NCBI GenBank assembly: GCA_016647705.1
Contig: CM028334.1
Location: 11,193,546 to 11,257,545 of the forward strand
DNA from: Eucommia ulmoides
Lineage: Eukaryota; Streptophyta; Magnoliopsida; Garryales; Eucommiaceae
Direction: 5' to 3'
Length of the DNA stretch: 64,000 nucleotides
Under the pieces are notes generated by a model. That model made no database searches, was not told the origin of the DNA, and was given only the letters and a program-made list of their open reading frames with translations. Of the stretch, positions 17,721 to 53,554 are shown one piece after another; position 1 is the first letter of the stretch; every line of letters begins with the position of its first letter. The position numbers and the translations under genes are program-made.

Positions 17721-17974
17721 TGGGATCTTAATGTTGCCAAGGAAGCCTTGATCATTCTTAATTTTATACTAAATGTTCACCTTTAATTTATACTTTTAAT
17801 AGTTTTTTTATTAAATTTTTACTAGTAATAGCATAATTTATTAATTTTGCAAGTACAAGTTAGAGAATAAAAAAATGTCGAAAAAATAACGAAGAAAGTA
17901 GCCGAAAATGCGCCCATTTGCACCCGAATGATTTTGGCCCAGTTAAACGTTACAAAGCACAAAAGGAAAAGAAA

Positions 17975-20900
17975 ATGTTGAGTGGTTTTTAGGGAATGAT
18001 TACACTGGAGAATTAATGTCATTGAAGACCACTAATGAGAATCAATGGAATATTGAGAAAGAAACCACGAAAGGAAAATCTGGCAGTGGGGTTTCTTAGG
18101 AAACTTCTTAGGGAACATTCATATATTATTCTCTTTGTTTGGCCAAGGGCGAGGATTCATCATTCCATTCATTTTTATTTTTCTTGTTTTCATTTTTTGG
18201 CTACTGTTTTCGGTGGTGGTGGAGTTCTTCACTGTGGGTTTGTTGAATATCTTCTAGAAAGAAGAACAGCCGCCATGAACGGCTAATGATTCATGTCAGG
18301 TTAGACTGTATTCGTTCTAAGATTTCTTCATGTAATTTTATTTTCTTATTCTATTTTATCTGTGCATAAGGTTGTATAACAAGGTTTTATGCTCATACAT
18401 TATTTATGAAATCAATTATTGTTTTTAGATGAATGTTAAAAATATTTTATTGGTACTTTTGGGGTTAGATTTAATACCTGTTATTTAAATCTAACTGTTA
18501 TACAATCAGTTTTATTAGAATTGATACTGTTTAATATGACGAGTTATGTTTAGAGATTGATTCACCATAAATTAGCAAGAATCGAATTCCAAAGATAATT
18601 CATACCGATTAGGATGAAATATGCTTAGGAATTGGTTCACCGTAGATTAGGAACCGAATCTCGAAGATGGTTCATGCTGATTAAATAGTCGTGCTTTCGT
18701 TCTAATTTTTCTTGTAGTTAAATATTTCACTATACACAGAATCAAAATAAGTGAAGGATTAAAACACATTAGGATAATCAAAAGACGAATGCATGCCCTT
18801 AACCCAATTATTTATCATTTAATATTTTAATTTAATTATTTTTTTGTATTAAAAAATTCCAAAATCAATCTTGTTAAATTCAATCGAAGAATAAGATAAA
18901 AATTAATAGTTACAATCTAATCTATGTAGCTCAACTCAATACTTAAGTTGCTATACTACGATAGGAAAATAAAATATTGAGTGGTTTTTAGGGAATGATT
19001 ACACTGGAGAATTAATGTCGTTGAAGGCCATTAATGAGAATCAATGGAATATTGGGAAAGAAACCACGAAAGGAAAATCTGGCAGTGGGATTTCTTAGGA
19101 GACTTCTTAGGGAACATTCATATATTATTCTCTTCGTTTGGCCAAGGGGAGGATTCATCATTCCGTTCATTTTTATTTTCTTTGGCTACTGTTTTCGGTG
19201 GTGGTAGAGTTCTTCATTGTGGGTTTGTTGAATATCTTCTAGAAAGAAGAACAACTATCATGAACGGCTAAGGCTTCATGCCGGGTTAGGTTGTATTCGT
19301 TCTAAGATTTCTTTATGTAATTTTATTTTTTTATTCTATTTTATCTACGCATAAGGTTGTATAACAAGGATTTATGCTCATACATTATTTATGAAATCAA
19401 TTATTGTTTTTATATGAATGTTAAAAATAATTTATTGGTACTTTTGGGGTTAAATTTAATACACGTGGTTTAAATTTAACCGTTATACAATCAGTTTTAT
19501 TAGAATTGATAAAGTTTAATAAGATGAGTTACGCTTAGGGATTGATTCACCATAAATTAGTAGGAATCGAATTCTAAAGATAATTCATACGGATTAAACG
19601 GTCGGTTAATTGACATATTTGATAGGATGGAATATGCTTAGGGATTGGTTTATCGTAGATTAGGAACCAAATCCCGAAGATGGTCCATGCCGATTAAATA
19701 GTCGTACTTTCATTATAATTTTTCTTGTAGTTAAATATTTCATTATACACAAAATCAAAATAGATAAAGAATTAAAACACATTAGGATAATCAAAAGACA
19801 AATGCATGCCCTTAACCCACTTATTTATCATTTAGTATTTTAATTTAATTTTTTTTTTTTTTTGTATTAAAAAAGTCCAAAATCAATCTTATTAAATTCA
19901 ACCGAAGAATAAGATAAGGCTTAATAATTATAATCTAATCCATGTGGCTTAACCCAATACTTAAGTCGCCATACTACAATAGTTAGCGCTTAGATCGGCA
20001 ATTGAATTTGTGTAATCCAGCCTTCTCTTGCCTCCCTTGGGAAAGAAACCACGAAAAGAAAATTTGGCAATGAGGAGACTTTTTAGGGAACATTCATATA
20101 TTATTCTCTTTGTTTGGCCAAGGGGAGGATTCATCATTCTATTCATTTTTTTTTATTTTTTTTTTTCATTTTTTGGCTATTGTTTTCGATGGTGGTGGAG
20201 TTCTTTATGGTGGATTCGTTGAATATCTTCTACAAAGAAGAACAGCCGCCATGAACGGTGAAGTCTTTTTACTGGGTTAGGCCGTATTCATTCTAAGATT
20301 TCTTCATATAATTTTATTTTCTTATTATATTTTATCTACGCATAAGGTTGTATAATAATGATTTATGCTCATACATTATTTATGAAATCAACTATTATTT
20401 TTATATGAATGTTAAAAATAATTTATTGGTACTTTTGGTGTTAGATTTAATACATGTGATTTAAATCTAACCGTTATATAATCAGTTTTATTAGAATTGA
20501 TACGGTTTAATAAGATGAGTTATGCTTAGGGATTGATTCACCATAAATTAGTAGGAATCGAATTCTAAAGATAATTCATACCGATTAAACGGTCGGTTAA
20601 TTGACATATTTGATAGGATGAAATATGCTTAGGGATTGGTTCACCGTAGATTAGGAACCGAATCCCGAAGATGGTTCATGCCGATTAAATAGTCGTATTT
20701 TTGTTGTAATTTTTTTTATAGTTAAATTATTTCATTATACACATAATCAAAATAGATAAAGAATTAAAACACATTATGATAATCAAAAGAAGAATGCATG
20801 CCCTCAGCACGATTATTTATCATTTAGTATTTTAATATATATTTTTTATTAAAAAATTCCTAAATCAATCTTGTTAAATTCAACCGAAGAGTAAGATAAA

Positions 20901-20990
20901 AATTAATAGTTACAATTCAATCCATGTGGATCGACCCAGTACTTAAGTCGCTATACTATGATAGTTAGCGCTTAGATTAGGAATTAAAAT
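17975..20990. repeat. Three tandem ~1 kb repeats in the gypsy leader region
   Basis: Copies start near 17975, 18975 and 20035 (the last is 5'-truncated) and share GAAAGAAACCACGAAA, ATATTATTCTCTT, TTTGTTGAATATCTTCTA, CGCATAAGGTTGTATAA and GATTGATTCACCATAAATTA. Copies 2 and 3 share an extra GATTAAACGGTCGGTTAATT block missing from copy 1. The array lies between LTR and gag, so it was probably amplified within the element. A tiny ATGAACGG frame is retained in all copies. Confidence 0.8.
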
Positions 20991-21809
20991 TGAGCGATCA
21001 AGCCGTCTCTTGCCTTCCTTGACTTATGGTCGCAGGGCTGGGGGTCGTCCCCGGGCACATGTCTGTTGGATAAGATTACCCTATCCCTGTAATTCTGAGG
21101 TCACTCCTCTCGCCCTGTGATTTGGAGAGTTGGTCCCCCTCAGGCAAGGGTCAGTGGCAGGCAAGAGAGAAGGGATTGAGAGTAGTTCAGGAACTCGCCT
21201 AACCGACGTTCCAAGTTGTCGATCCATAAAGCTTCTACAGCTCCAGATGTTTACCCCATAAAGGGTCCATAGGGCAAGGTCAACGGACCCGTCTTGCCCG
21301 TGGGAGGTAGGTTGTCTTCGTTTGTGGGAACCCGATGGTCTGACCTCGGGACTTTCGACATATCTTTGGAGGAAAGATTGCTTGGGTTGTTATTCACCGC
21401 AGGTGTTTGGTCTCTTCGTCGAATTACTTGATCAGACCTTGTGATAATCAAATCTTAGCCAAGCAGGGAGTTGATGGCCAGAGGAAGATTTGTGTGCTTC
21501 CCATAGAGAGTGTCGAGAATTGGTAAACACTAGCAAAATGGTCTGATCAGATTATACGTGTAAATTGATGCTGAGTTGGAGTGTTGAAGTGGAGTTCTGA
21601 GTCCTGAAGAACTAGCTAGATGTCCGAAAATAATTAAGTGATCTTCAAACGCCTAGTTGAGGTTCATAGAGCCGACGTCTAGAAAATACGTAACTATGCA
21701 AGGACTCAGCGAAGCCCCTCTGATGTAAGAGTAAGAGCTCAGGGAGAAAAGGCTAAACAAATACTTCAATCGAAATAATGTGCATTACCTTGAGAATTGA
21801 ATGCACTTT

Positions 21810-24524: not shown

Positions 24525-24829
24525 AGATTTTTAGTGGAATTTTGATCTTGGGATGAAATGATTAAGTCCATATAAATTGACTCAATCAAAATTCATGATT
24601 TTTTAGCAGTATAATCGGAGAGTGATAAATTTTGTAAAGGGGATTTTATTATTTAGTCCTCTCTTGATAGCCTATTGAGGATTCAGACCTCCTGACAACC
24701 ATAATTAAGTTTTCAGACCCCAAGATTCTTTTAGGAAAAAGTTCCTGCATTTTGCCCACTTTGTTCACAAATATTTACGAATCTGCTATTTTATCCTATG
24801 CAATAAAACAAAGTTTGACAATAAGGGTA

Positions 24830-25935
24830 TTAACGTTAACGTAAAACACTTCAAACAATATCCATTGCCTATATTACAAAATTATATTTTGAATTCACAT
24901 TAACGTTATTTGCATTCATGTTTTTTTTTCTTATCTGTTTTGTGTGTGTTACGTTAACATTAATTTATTTTTGTGTGAGTTAACGTTTATTCATTTTTAG
25001 TAATACAATTTTTCTTTTCTTTTTTTTTTTTTTTTTGGTCAAATCTTGACTATGTTACAAAACTACGATTTGAAATTCACGTTAACTTTAACGCATTTTT
25101 TATATTTTTTTTTATGTGTTTTACGTTACCGCATATTTCCTCATCTGTTTGAGTGCATTAAAATGTTAACGCATTTTTTTACCATCAGACTGTGGGTTTT
25201 AACGTTTACGTATTTTATTTTTTGAGGATTCTGTGTGTTAACATATTTTACTTGAATATTTACGTTAACGTCTTACCACATACTTTTGTTTTGTGCGCAT
25301 TAACGTTAACTACCATATGTGGTATTTTGTTCTTTTGAGCTGAATATGTGATTGGGTTGAGTTTGCGTTAACATTAATACACATTTTTTCTAGGGGTCTC
25401 CTATGTTAACGTTAACATATTCATGTTGTTTGAAAATCCATATGTGAGAAAATAAAAAGCAAACACTGACGTTAATGTAAATGCATATTTTTATGGATCT
25501 CTTTCTATGTTAACATTAACACATTCATGTTGTCCAAAACAAACATGTGAAAAAATCACACAAAACATTAACGTTAACGTAAAATACACATTTTTCTTAA
25601 TTTGCATTAACGTTAATACACATTTTTCTTAATTTGTGTTAACGTTAATACACATTTTTCTGTGGGGCTCCTATGTTTATGTTAACGTTAACGCATTCAT
25701 ATTGTTTGGAATCCCATATGTGAGAAATCAAAAAACACACACTGATATTAACATTAATGAACATTTTCACCTATATGTTAACGTTAACGCGTCCATGTTA
25801 TCTGGACACCCATATGTGAAAAATTAAAAAGCGACGTTAACGTTAAATCAATATTTTTATCCTAAATATTAACGTTAACGCATCCATGTTGTCTAGACAC
25901 TTATACGTGAAAAAATCAAGCAAACACTGACATTA
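24830..25935. repeat. GTTAACGTTAACG-rich degenerate tandem array
   Basis: The palindromic word GTTAAC and the longer TTAACGTTAACG occur dozens of times over 1.1 kb. Later units (about 25380-25930) carry a recognisable spacer, CATTCATGTTGT then CCATATGTGA. Units are roughly 100-140 bp. Confidence 0.75.
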
Positions 25936-26129
25936 GTGTAAAAAATGAACACCCCCTACCTTCACCACCATTCATATGGCCACTATCATCACCGCCGACA
26001 CCATTCCCAAAAATATTTTGTTTACAGATCTAAATGAATAAACAAAACTCAAATTCACATATCTGAATAACACAAAACAACAAATGGCAGGCTCAGATCT
26101 AAAAATTCATATCTGAATTTCTAGATCTG

Positions 26130-26131
<2 letters not shown>

Positions 26132-26180
<49 letters not shown>
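26132..26180. repeat. (CA)n(TA)n(GATA) microsatellite
   Basis: About 18 CA units then TA and GATA/GA repeats. Confidence 0.9.
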
Positions 26181-26188
<8 letters not shown>

Positions 26189-26641
26189 GAGAGAGAGATA
26201 GAAAGAAAGAAAAGTTTCTTCACGATACAGGCAGAACAATAAACAAAAACAAGCCAATTCCAACACTAATGTCTGAATGAGTGTGTGTGAAAATAAGAGA
26301 GAGAGAGAGACCAAACGAAGATTTATGAATTGCAAATGGTTTGATCGAAGCCATTGAAGATATTCCCTTAAAAGGACCCTCTATTCCCCTTTAATTTTTG
26401 AGCCTAGAAAAAGAAAATGCTTTTTTTTCTTTTTTTTCAAGAGAGAGAAAGAAGAAAGAAGAAAAACTGGTAGGAAGAAAAAGGGTGTTTGCGAATGACG
26501 AAATGAGATTACAGTTTCTCCGTTTTTGTCTGCAGCCGCCGCCGCAAGCCCACCACCAAATCTGAGATTAGGAGTCTCCATACACATCGCACACGACTCT
26601 GCCATTAATTTCGCAAGTCCAAGCTCTCATGCCATACGCTG

Positions 26642-27085
26642 TCAAGAGCATGACGAGAGCATAACCATGGCATGAAGGGTTATAGCTAGCATTGTGGATC
26701 CTATGTATATTATCAAATTTGGTTTTTCGACGATCCGAACATTACCCATCTGAGCAAAAACCAAATTACTTGAAACAAACCTCGATGTCTCTCAATGCTT
26801 TGTTTCTGGTGTGCCGGAATCCATATGAATCAGGTAGTAGTTTCCGAGATGGTAGAGGGCGAGGGGTAGCCTCTTGAGCTTCGAAATGTCGCCTTTAGAT
26901 GCTGAAATCAAGTATGTGAAGGTCATCGGATATGGGTTGTTGTCGGACTTGGGTATGATTAAGGTGTTTGTAGTAGTAATTGGATTGAAAATGGCGAAGG
27001 GTGGTGTTAGTTTCGGTTGGATGTAAAGGATAGAGAACAGAATTGAAGTCAACATGAAACAAATGGCCAAAAACTTGATACCCAT
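26642..27085 (-). pseudogene. GT14-family glucuronosyltransferase gene fragment
   Basis: The minus-strand frame opens at 27085 with MGIKFLAICFMLTSILFSIL, a type II Golgi membrane anchor. It continues through PYPMTFTYLISASKGD and LALYHLGNYYLIHMDSGTPE, which matches the start of the core-2/I-branching (GT14, GlcAT14) catalytic domain. A TGA stops it at 26794. The same frame goes on with FVSSNLVFAQMGNVRIVEKP and GSTMLAITLHAM, conserved in GT14, to a second TGA at 26644. Only about 145 of some 400 residues remain and the catalytic core is missing. Known GT14 enzymes add glucuronic acid to arabinogalactan glycans in the Golgi. It lies inside the Pack-MULE-like element, so it is probably a captured copy. 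Family assignment is strong; function is lost. Confidence 0.82.
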
Positions 27086-27181
27086 TTCTGAAAACTTTTA
27101 AAAACTTGTAGAAAGAGAGAGAATAGTGGTGGTGGTGGTTAAATTGTTGTTAATAAAGGGTTTTTCATGGAAAAACAGTAG

Positions 27182-27216
<35 letters not shown>
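27182..27216. repeat. (GT)n(AT)n microsatellite
   Basis: GT units followed by TA units, upstream of the GT14 fragment. Confidence 0.85.
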
Positions 27217-27806
27217 GCGGGGGAGTGGGAGACTAGAGAGAAGATGAGAGAGAAAATCGTCGCCGCTCAACTAGGGTTTTTAGAGAGAGACTCTCTCTCT
27301 CTAAAAATTTCAAATTAATTTGTGAGTGAGTTTGTGGAGTGATTAGGGATAAAATAGTTAATGTTAACGTCAAATAAGAGAGAGAGGGGTATATATGTCT
27401 GTTTACGGACTTTTTTTGTCTACCAAAGGATTAAATACTTGATTAGTTGTAGTGTATGGTCTGAATTATGGATGAACAGTTGGAAATGTCTTTTTTCTAA
27501 ATGATCTTTTAAATAAGGACTATAAAATAAAAAGCTCTTTTGTAAATCATCTTATTCCCTTAAAAACTCTTTTTGACATGTGCAAGATTTTCGCAAACGA
27601 TTTTTAGTAATACACTTTGAATCATTTTGTGAACCATTTATTTTTCAGAACATTGTAAAAGTGTCATTGATTTTGTTATTCCCATGCCGTATGATTTTTT
27701 AGAAATGCTCTTTCGTTTGTAGGTTTCATAATTGTGATATCAAGAGGGTTGCTGAAGTCAAGGATAAAATTACCTATAGACTATGAGGTGATGATGGATT
27801 TGCTAA

Positions 27807-33813: not shown

Positions 33814-34832
33814 TGTTGTCGCAGAAAATAAATAAAGAACGAGTTTACCAAAATTTCTTGGGATGAGTGGCGGACTAGGTCGCTCTCTTTAAGACGTTTC
33901 GCGACTCTGCCCAAGAACGTGCAAGCAGTGTATCAGCCCCGTCGTCCCCAGGATAAAACAGCCCAGAATTCTCCTCTGTCTAGGACGTTCTTTGCACTGT
34001 AGAAGTCCCGAAAACCAAACACCCCCACACACTGTTCGCAAAACGAACAAAACTGCTCGGAAACCAAAATCGGACAGATTAAACAGTACCGGAACAGATC
34101 GGAACAATTCCAGAAGATGAAACCGAAAATGTTTCGGAACAGATACTGTTTCGGAACAGAAACAGAAACAAAATCGGAACAGAAAACAGAAATAAAGCCG
34201 GAACAGAAACAGAAACAGTGCAGAAACTGGAGGGAACAGAACACTGTTTTTTTGTTGTGTGAAATTGAGAAAAAAAAAAAAACCTTGTATTTATAGGGAA
34301 AAAAAAAACAAACCGTTTGAGAATTTTCTTTTAAAACCGAAAATAAAAAAACGTTTTTAAAAAATTTATTAAAACGTTTCAATTAAAACGTTTGAAACAT
34401 AAAACGTTTTTTAATAAATAAAAAACGTTTTGTTTTTTTTTTCAACGGTTCAAGATTCAAAAAAAAAAAACGTTTTGTTTTTTATTTTTTTAATTAAACT
34501 GTAATAAAAAAAATATTTTTTTCTAAAAAGTAAATAAGTGCCACCACATCACACACGCGACTCGACTCGACTCGACTCAGCACGGCCGGACGGACGGCGG
34601 CGGCGGCGCGCGAGCGTGTGTGGTAAACCGGTAGGGATGTAACTCCTCTCCCCTCCACAAAATGTGGGTACCCCTTGGGGCACACTCCAAGTGTCTCACA
34701 TACCTCTAGATATCCACTTTAATTTTACCTCTCCCAACCAATGTGGGACAAAAGGTTTTGAGGGATAAATCAATTTGACACATTTGGCACTTTCTATTCT
34801 AAAAATTAAATTAAAATTCATTTGTTTCAACA
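33814..34832 (-). repeat. Copia 3' LTR (1019 bp)
   Basis: Begins TGTTGTCGCAG on the plus strand and ends TTTGTTTCAACA. It contains a TATA box on the minus strand (34297-34283), runs of AAAACGTTT and AACAGAAAC words, and a CGACT microsatellite (34557-34580). It is about 65 bp longer than the other LTR owing to repeat-length differences. Confidence 0.95.
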
Positions 34833-39300: not shown

Positions 39301-40254
39301 TGTTGTCGCAGAAAATAAATAAAGAACGAGTTTACCAAAATTTCTGGGGATGAGTCGCGGACTAGGTCGCTCTCTTTAAGACGTTTCGCGGCTCTGCCCA
39401 AGAACGTGCAAGTAGTGTATCAGCCCCGTCGTCCCCAGGATAAAACAGCCCAGAATTCTCCTCTGTCTAGGACGTTCTTTGCACTGTAGAAGTCCCGAAA
39501 ACCAAACACCCCCACACACTGTTCGCAAAACGAACAAAACTGCTCGGAAACCAAAATCGGACAGATTAAACAGTACCGGAACAGATCGGAACAATTCCGG
39601 AAGATGAAACCGAAAATGTTTCGGAACAGAAACAGAAACAAAATCGGAACAGAAAACAGAAATAAAGCCAGAACAGAAACAGAAACAGTGCAGAAACTGG
39701 AGGGAACAGAACACTGTTTTTTTGTTGTGTGAAATTGAGAAAAAAAAAAACCTTGTATTTATAGGAAAAAAAAACAAACCGTTTGAGAATTTTCTTTTAA
39801 AACCGAAAATAAAAAAACGTTTTTAAAAAATTTATTAAAACGTTTCAATTAAAACGTTTGAAACGTAAAACGTTTTTCAACGGTTCAAGATTAAAAAAAA
39901 AACGTTTTGTTTTTTATTTTTTTAATTAAACTGTAATAAAAAAAATATTTTTAAATAATTTTTTTTTCTAAAAAGTAAATAAATGTCACCTCATCACACG
40001 CGCGACTCGACTCGGCACGGCCGGCGGCGGCGCGCGCGCGTGTGGTAAACCGGTAGGGATGTAACTCCTCTCCCCTCCACAAAATGTGGGTACCCCTTGG
40101 GGCACACCCCAAGTGTCTCACATACCCCTAGATATCCATTTTAATTTTACCTCTCTCAACCAATGTGGGACAAAAGGTTTTGAGGGATAAATCAATTTGA
40201 CACATTTGGCACTTTTTATTCTAAAAATTAAATTAAAATTCATTTGTTTCAACA
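39301..40254 (-). repeat. Copia 5' LTR (954 bp)
   Basis: Same ends as the other LTR. Minus-strand TATA box at 39765-39751 (CCTATAAATACAAGG), which should start the genomic transcript. No canonical TGGTATCAGAGC primer binding site follows it. Confidence 0.95.
39751..39765 (-). promoter_or_regulatory. TATA box of copia 5' LTR
   Basis: CCTATAAATACAAGG on the minus strand, identical in both LTRs (other copy 34297-34283). Confidence 0.7.
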
Positions 40255-41149: not shown

Positions 41150-41630
41150 AAATCTGGGGTTTTGACACTTTATACCCCTAAAACTTTACCATTATTTTAA
41201 TTTGGTCCCTATAGTTGTAATTTGAAATTCCATAATCATCCCACTTCAGCTCAAATTAATAGCTCCATTACAATTTTGGACAAGAAACAGTCAATTAACA
41301 TACACCTTACTATTTTTAAAGGGACTTTTTGAGCATTCCCAACCTCTTCCTCCCCTTTATAAATTTTATGCAAAAATATTCGGAGTATTTGGGCAAAAAG
41401 AAGAATGGGAGGAAGGGGGAAGAATTGAAATCGTTTGTAAGCCTCTTAAAAACATCAAGTGCATGGCAGATAATTGTTTTTCATTCCAAAATTGTAATGG
41501 GTATATATTATTTAGATTATAGTGGGATGATTAAAAAACTGAGATGCTATATGTTCAAATTAACATTTTGGGGACCAAACTGAAGTTGGTCAAAGTTAAA
41601 AGTAGAAAAATGTCAAAACCCATAAAATCA
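41150..41630. mobile_element. Small MULE-like TIR element
   Basis: Left GGGTTTTGACACTTTATACC and, reversed, right GGGTTTTGACATTTTTCTAC are inverted ends; further in, AATTTGGTCCC and GGGGACCAAACT also pair. No clear TSD. The right two thirds (41288-41628) recur at 43741-44074. Confidence 0.55.
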
Positions 41631-43738: not shown

Positions 43739-44077
43739 AAACAGTCAATTAACATACACCTTACTATTTTTAAAGGGACTTTCTGAGCATTCCCAACCTC
43801 TTCCTCCCCTTTATAAATTTTATACAAAAATATTCAGAGTATTTGGGCAAAAAGGAGAATGGGAGGAAGGGGGAAGAATTGAAATCTTCTGTAAGCCTCT
43901 TAAAAATATCAAGTGCATGGTTGTTTTTCATTCCATAATTGTAATGGGTATATATTATTCGGACTATAGTGAGATGATTAAAAAACTGAGATACTATATG
44001 TTCAAAGTTATGTTTTGGGGACCAAACTGAAGTTGGTCAAAGTTAAAAGTAGAAAAATGTCAAAACCCATAAAATAT
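43739..44077. repeat. Second copy of the MULE-like element's right part
   Basis: About 335 bp at roughly 93-95% identity to 41288-41628, in direct orientation, beginning exactly at the LTR end. Confidence 0.75.
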
Positions 44078-52937: not shown

Positions 52938-53554
52938 AGTTGTCTAATTTATCTTTAGATAAGTTTTGTAAGTTTTATAAATTCCTCCTAATTAATAAAT
53001 ACCTAAACAAGAGATTTGTCAAAATGAAATTTTGAAATTTTTTGAACAAATCAAATCTCTCTCCCATATTCTTGATGCAAACCTAACCTAGGGGAATTTA
53101 GATCTTCGGATGAAATAATTAAGTCCATATAAATTGATTCAATCAAAATCCATGATTTTTTAACTGTACAACCGGAGAGTGATAAATTTTATAAATCATC
53201 TTATTCCCTTAAAAACACTCTTTTACATGTGCAAGATTTTCACAACTGATTTTTAGTTATACGAAAACACACTTTGAATCATTTTCTGAACCAATTATTT
53301 TTCAAAACATTAGAAAATTGTAATTGATTTTGTTATTCCCATACCATACGATTTTTTATAAATGCCCTTTCGTTTGGAGGTTTCTTGAATGTGACATCAA
53401 GAGGACTCATGAAGTCAAGGATAAAATCACCTATAGACTACGAGGTGATGATGGATCTTAAAGGGCTAATGAAGTCGAGGATAAAATCACCTATAGACTA
53501 TGAAGTGATGATGGATATTAAAATAGTAATAATAATAAATTTGAATGCATTACT

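Follow-up and report, generated by a model that had tools for sequence, protein, structure and literature searches.

Structure of the element

The window analyzed here is a 64,000-nucleotide stretch of Eucommia ulmoides DNA, corresponding to C10:11193546-11257545 of the genome that was searched (946.7 Mb, 391 contigs). It harbors an element delimited by a target-site duplication (TSD) and terminal inverted repeats (TIRs), within which a dense array of short motifs, a repeat-rich spacer, and, in antisense orientation, the 5′ portion of a gene for a GT14 glycosyltransferase follow one another (Table 1). A Pack-MULE-like element had been proposed for exactly this span, and the proposal is confirmed by the TSD, the TIRs, and the empty site. 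The TSD is identical at 9/9 positions on either side, and the TIRs are, as anticipated, imperfect, sharing 17 of 22 bases in an ungapped comparison.

Table 1. Features of the element and of its unfilled paralogous target site (positions within the window)
Feature	Position	Strand	Remarks
Complete non-autonomous MULE (very probably a Pack-MULE), 2,899 bp	24639..27537	.	TSD, TIRs, empty site, copies elsewhere
Left target-site duplication, TTTTGTAAA	24630..24638	.	
Right target-site duplication, TTTTGTAAA	27538..27546	.	
5′ terminal inverted repeat, begins GGGGATTTTATTATTTAGTCC	24639..24660	+	17/22 bases match the 3′ end
3′ terminal inverted repeat, GAGCTTTTTATTTTATAGTCC on the minus strand	27516..27537	-	
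GTTAAC / TTAACGTTAA motif array, ~1.05 kb	24830..25879	.	GTTAAC and TTAACGTTAA site counts
Internal spacer, AC and GA repeats	25980..26655	.	
GT14 (Core-2/I-branching, PF02485) exon-1 fragment, 143 codons from the start codon	26656..27085	-	90.2% over 430 nt to L023
Captured 5′ flank / 5′UTR of the GT14 gene	27086..27224	-	donor DNA match extends to L023:4234
Sub-segment shared with group B, ~10 codons and 5′UTR	27057..27207	-	31 further genome places, 81-89%
3′ terminal region of the MULE family	27225..27537	.	single outlying GTTAAC at 27363
Paralogous flank sequence around the empty site	53089..53456	.	89.7% left, 85.6% right
Empty paralogous target site, ttttataaa	53187..53195	.	8/9 vs window TSD

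The uninterrupted paralogous sequence that had been noticed near 53180 is an unfilled version of the target site. The left flank (24532-24638) aligns with 53089-53195 and the right flank (27538-27799) with 53187-53456, such that the two alignments overlap at the unfilled site by exactly 9 bp. Twenty open reading frames of at least 40 amino acids are listed around the window element, the longest having 97; this 97-residue GT14 frame is the one among the 20 that was scanned against Pfam. No transposase was found in the elements read, for which a subset of the reading frames was scanned.

Copies and the wider family

Elements with the same termini occur many times in the genome, so the absence of further copies that had been feared is not borne out. 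The first 200 bp of the element yield 970 first-look candidates genome-wide and the last 200 bp yield 454 (best 40 of each scored), and same-termini elements are present on many other contigs. A 93% copy of the window element is located at C10:11124341-11127229, along with many partial copies.

Two further copies on contig C10, L009 (92.6% identical to the window element) and L010 (82-85%), have the same TSD as the window copy and flanks homologous to those in the window (96.2%/92.2% for L009 and 93.2%/82.7% for L010). Because of this common TSD and these homologous flanks, the three C10 copies would represent a single insertion that was multiplied, together with its surroundings, by local duplication. 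The element is thus one among many, and the original prediction erred in treating it as a singular instance.

Twenty elements, the window copy included, were delimited from the best DNA hits and constitute a biased sample. With fixed ends, the TSD is 9/9 in five of them and at least 8/9 in 12; across 25 elements, the corresponding numbers are 10 and 17, compared with 0 and 6 among 10,000 displaced site pairs drawn from the examined loci. Allowing a one-base shift per end gives 3 and 51 control pairs per 10,000 at these two thresholds, while four of the 25 elements (L017, L018, L024, and L028) stay below 8/9 even with such shifts. A/T-rich targets make some of the 8/9 matches less informative. 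The 10 elements with exact TSDs amount to eight distinct insertions when the three C10 copies are counted once.

The TIRs of the 25 elements match at 8 to 20 of 22 bases, ungapped, and their core, TTTTATTWTWTAGTCC, has 1,232 occurrences in the genome versus 84 for a reversed control. L066 is an additional family member of 2.3 kb, and at L065 the 5′ terminus was not found within 5.2 kb. In L011, a second 5′ terminus of the family (L011:3527-3580), diverged in sequence, lies 12 bp past the element's own 3′ end, a possible case of tandem insertions.

These data bear on the idea that array and gene piece are unrelated neighbors, i.e., a GT14 pseudogene beside a satellite, joined by duplication without transposition. 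The locus does lie in locally duplicated DNA, with three C10 copies sharing flanks, but the exact TSD, the empty site, the sharp common termini, and the recurrence of the window-like arrangement on C6, C8, and C15 all oppose it, and TSDs that differ between loci already contradict it, leaving a negligible probability.

The GT14 fragment and its donor-like locus

The 5′ part of a GT14 gene with its start codon, as predicted, consists of 430 nt of exon 1 and ~139 bp of 5′ flank in antisense orientation; the upstream part measures 127 bp in the donor. The coding part aligns without indels and has a single stop, at codon 98. From its hydrophobic sequence, the N-terminal stretch of the fragment is predicted to be a membrane anchor.

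The search for an intact GT14 donor leads to a donor-like locus on C16 (L023, C16:377677-378233), at which exon 1 is open (87% identity). Donor exon 1 (L023:3592-4107, minus strand) matches Branch (PF02485) with 7.7e-30, and a downstream exon also matches Branch, with 4.5e-16. The fragment consists wholly of exon 1 and 5′ flank of the donor and so carries no information on intron retention. When donor exon 1 is compared with the whole window by tblastn, the sole significant match is 27085-26657 (83.9% at the amino acid level, E 1.8e-76), the next having E 7.6; the last exon of the donor gives nothing below E 7 anywhere in the window. GT14 similarity is confined to the element, and the extension into flanking DNA that had been raised as a concern is not seen.

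Six of the 20 elements carry the GT14 piece (window, L009, L010, L011, L012, and L014), and in all six of these long copies the match starts at donor query position 87 or 89. The donor shares simple-repeat words at most with the other 14. In the comparison of the 20 elements, full-length alignment of the spacer is restricted to the GT14-bearing long copies. Over the 143 codons, L009 alone shows neither a stop nor a deletion, the other five long copies being interrupted. Nei–Gojobori comparisons of four of the six long copies and the donor (L011 and L014 were omitted for deletions) give dN/dS values per pair of 0.25-0.53 on 23-51 changes (0.25 on 23 changes for the window copy versus L009), which mix donor constraint with decay. 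Most likely, the coding piece is a passenger undergoing decay.

Short GT14 copies

A search with window positions 26600-27360, in which the best 40 of 121 candidates were scored, identifies at least 31 further places that match only ~27057-27207, i.e., the 5′UTR and ~10 codons. These short copies are referred to as group B. Of the 31 loci, 22 were read; all have an abrupt start at a single point, where 21 show a clear terminus of the family type and L045 a degenerate one. Five copies read end to end are 1,963-1,991 bp long and mutually 92.5-95.9% identical; each has an exact 9-bp TSD and 28-31 GTTAAC sites. For a sixth copy, L050, the 5′ end was not found upon extension.

Long and short copies can be aligned across the start codon and 5′UTR and on into the 3′ terminal region. 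Just upstream, the pentanucleotide GATTC, which is absent in the donor, is present in three of six long copies (L010, L012, and L014) and in all five short ones. Because the two forms share this donor-absent GATTC, they likely stem from a single capture, with the short copies arising by subsequent loss of most of the coding sequence. Two separate GT14 captures might instead be envisaged, given that the GATTC spot is an AT repeat and that the motif occurs in altered form in L011 and is lacking in L009 and the window copy; its distribution over both forms argues for the single event.

Could the direction of transfer be the reverse, the element family having donated the 5′UTR and first codons to the C16 GT14 gene? 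The 150-bp GT14 5′ segment does occur at no fewer than 31 further places, as transposon DNA would, but the similarity at C16 stops at L023:4234, and 8 kb of DNA there contains neither a family terminus (beyond short chance-level matches) nor any other part of the element. Moreover, the donor frame is open and is followed by a further Branch exon, and the segment is absent in 14 of 20 elements. Donation by the element is accordingly considered highly improbable.

It is also unlikely, although less so, that the GT14 segment is maintained because of a function, with its 5′UTR/promoter driving transcription of the element or with antisense or small RNAs regulating GT14 genes. Retention of the 5′UTR and start codon without the remainder in group B would suit such a role, as would the 143 codons of L009 that lack a stop, and Pack-MULEs and other gene carriers are siRNA reservoirs in maize according to a review (PMC13317346). 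Against this, five of six long copies have stops or deletions, and group B may represent a single lineage that succeeded, with the segment possibly hitch-hiking. Decay of the GT14 piece is not proof that it lacks a function, as L009 illustrates.

The GTTAAC motif array

The array occupies more than one-third of the length of the window element. GTTAAC is found 21 times in the element, whereas dinucleotide shuffles (n = 500) have a mean of 1.2 and a maximum of 6; 20 of the 21 sites are located at 24835-25879, and all 10 TTAACGTTAA sites fall within the array. Tandem units of 26, 32, and 91 bp are visible in the window array, and one of 88 bp is visible in L037. In the genome as a whole, GTTAACGTTAACG has 8,943 hits on both strands versus 89 for the reversed pattern, an approximately 100-fold difference.

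Each of the 20 elements examined contains GTTAAC 15-24 times, whether or not it bears GT14. Because the array is present in all 20, 14 of which are without GT14, it is a trait of the MULE family and separate from the capture. The GTTAAC array, originally given as ~1.1 kb, does exist at ~1.05 kb, but it does not belong to the capture event.

Other captured gene pieces and the origin of the element

The family has taken up more than one host gene. L019 carries a thaumatin-like 5′ piece (PF00314, 2.7e-9) in antisense orientation that ends 286 bp from the 3′ end, and a donor-like locus on C14 has a 265-residue open frame (PF00314, 5.8e-75). L018, L024, and a copy at C9:1926009 harbor an oppositely oriented ARM-repeat piece of 388 bp. 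Its donor-like loci, C15:16369155 (90%) and C13:21461681 (85%), match that piece only, and the C15 frame matches both Arm (3e-11) and DUF7792 (7.2e-18). The ARM fragment of L018 itself is under the Pfam Arm cut-off, and that of L024 has no Pfam match. Frames from five more family members (L014, L013, L027, L066, and a group B copy) gave no Pfam match. The extra DNA of L014 (element positions ~895-1765) includes a 290-residue stop-to-stop frame without a Pfam match. The gene piece found in the slot between the array and the 3′ end varies from member to member, as it does in Pack-MULEs.

Because of its mobile-element anatomy, the exact TSDs at several unrelated sites, the empty site, the donor-like gene, and the common coding breakpoint, we are highly confident that the window element is a Pack-MULE, i.e., a Mutator-like element that is non-autonomous and has acquired the 5′ portion of a GT14 gene. 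Gap filling or fusion of neighboring insertions would have placed the gene piece in its slot, which is bounded by the GTTAAC array on one side and by the final ~0.3 kb of the element on the other. Fusion of this kind is one described capture route (PMC8903248), and the second 5′ terminus of L011 is compatible with it but no proof. A MULE transposase acting in trans would mobilize the family via its degenerate TIRs, and the window copy would have reached C10 by transposition and later been duplicated locally with its flanks.

Candidate autonomous partner

A possible source of transposase is located on C1, where 33 strand hits of GTTAACGTTAACG are clustered over 9.6 kb (11233108-11242672). A 1.2-kb piece from a gap between motif clusters (L073, C1:11234700-11235900) contains two open frames, one of which matches MULE transposase (PF10551, 3.8e-12; PF00872, 8.3e-5), while the other is without a match. 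To the right of the clusters, an inward TIR core is found on the minus strand (C1:11243489-11243504). The interval C1:11233108-11243504 is a candidate autonomous member of the MULE family, read over this internal piece. The window element and the 1.2-kb C1 piece share no DNA similarity.

Other potential sources were rejected. Among the best 150 of 2,936 candidate PF10551 matches, none was seen by eye within 10 kb of the listed places of the family. A 757-residue MULE frame, which accounts for 18 of the 150 matches and was read at L069 and L070, was set aside since neither the window element nor the TIR cores match L069. Many copies have this frame open, and the domain score is identical in most of them, which suggests a recently active MULE family without the termini of the window element.

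The longest listed frames in the 3.7-kb insert of L010 and the 5.3-kb insert of L012 have 137 and 136 residues, respectively, and neither insert was retained as a transposase source. The L012 insert interrupts a TA microsatellite. The L010 insert (L010:2291-6016) shows the terminal motifs CACTACAACAAAAA...TTTTTGTTGTGGTG together with an AAT duplication of 3 bp and, judging by the end motif, is presumably a CACTA element nested in the Pack-MULE copy.

Relation to known systems

Pack-MULEs were reportedly described in rice by Jiang et al. in 2004, a study cited in PMC8903248. Like the Pack-MULEs of rice and other plants, the window family consists of non-autonomous MULEs with TIRs, host gene fragments from several donors, and TSDs in the 8-11 bp range given for the class (PMC6446971). 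It departs from the usual Pack-MULEs with long TIRs in that its own are short (~22 bp) and degenerate, and in that the window element contains a 1.05-kb motif array. PM-ZIBP of tomato, as described in PMC3310237, is similar in being a dicot case with one fragment amplified to many copies and an identified parental gene; it has mostly tandem long TIRs, in contrast to the degenerate single TIRs and internal motif array of the window family.

The tandem arrays of short motifs in non-coding DNA are reminiscent of the VANDAL elements of Arabidopsis. VANC21 is reported to bind YAGTATTAY, and DUF1985 is the domain shown for VANC proteins (PMC5735166, PMC10398659). The motif in the window family is of the GTTAAC type and thus differs from that reported for VANC21. 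A further difference is that no VANC/DUF1985 gene was linked to the family here, whose fully read elements are non-autonomous. DUF1985 (PF09331) has at least 105 matches in the genome (best 150 of 580 candidates scored), and by eye none of the matches scored lies beside the listed loci of the family. More than 20 pairs of DUF1985 matches ~4-6 kb apart were counted by eye (e.g., C4:21694371 and C4:21699437), as would be expected from elements with two such genes each.

By analogy only, the family appears VANDAL-like in part, with degenerate TIRs, 9-bp TSDs, and a dense array. The array is most likely a family-wide cis element that would serve as a binding platform for a transposase or a VANC-like anti-silencing protein. 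More speculatively, and with rather low confidence, the family might belong to a VANDAL-like MULE lineage outside Arabidopsis in which GTTAACGTTAAC arrays address the anti-silencing protein or transposase, and in which gene-carrying non-autonomous members keep the whole array and borrow anti-silencing in trans. The genome-wide array offers a direct test for VANDAL-type anti-silencing arrays outside Arabidopsis and for their use by non-autonomous gene carriers.

The literature searched, from which most subscription papers were excluded, yielded no description of the family among the papers listed, and those containing GTTAACGTTAAC or TTAACGTTAACG as text do not, by their titles, concern plant transposons. 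Words starting with "mule" or "mutator" are absent from the main text of the paper on the Eucommia genome (PMC7603500). The suggestion that the element is undescribed holds in this sense for the family, but not for gene capture, which is ordinary for Pack-MULEs. Pack-MULEs are already known, and the window family is new within its kind; what deserves further attention is the motif array, together with the candidate partner. The family provides a dicot Pack-MULE system in which three host genes can be traced, an empty site serves as an internal control, and a candidate source of transposase is available; one of its gene pieces is preserved in both long and short forms.

Other repeats in the window

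Direct repeats of ~1 kb at 33814-34832 and 39301-40254 are 89.5% identical and ~4.5 kb apart, and they possibly delimit an LTR element. Tandem units of ~1 kb with ~85% identity occupy 17964-21021, and 344-bp direct repeats of 93% identity, ~2.1 kb apart, are located at 41285-41628 and 43739-44075.
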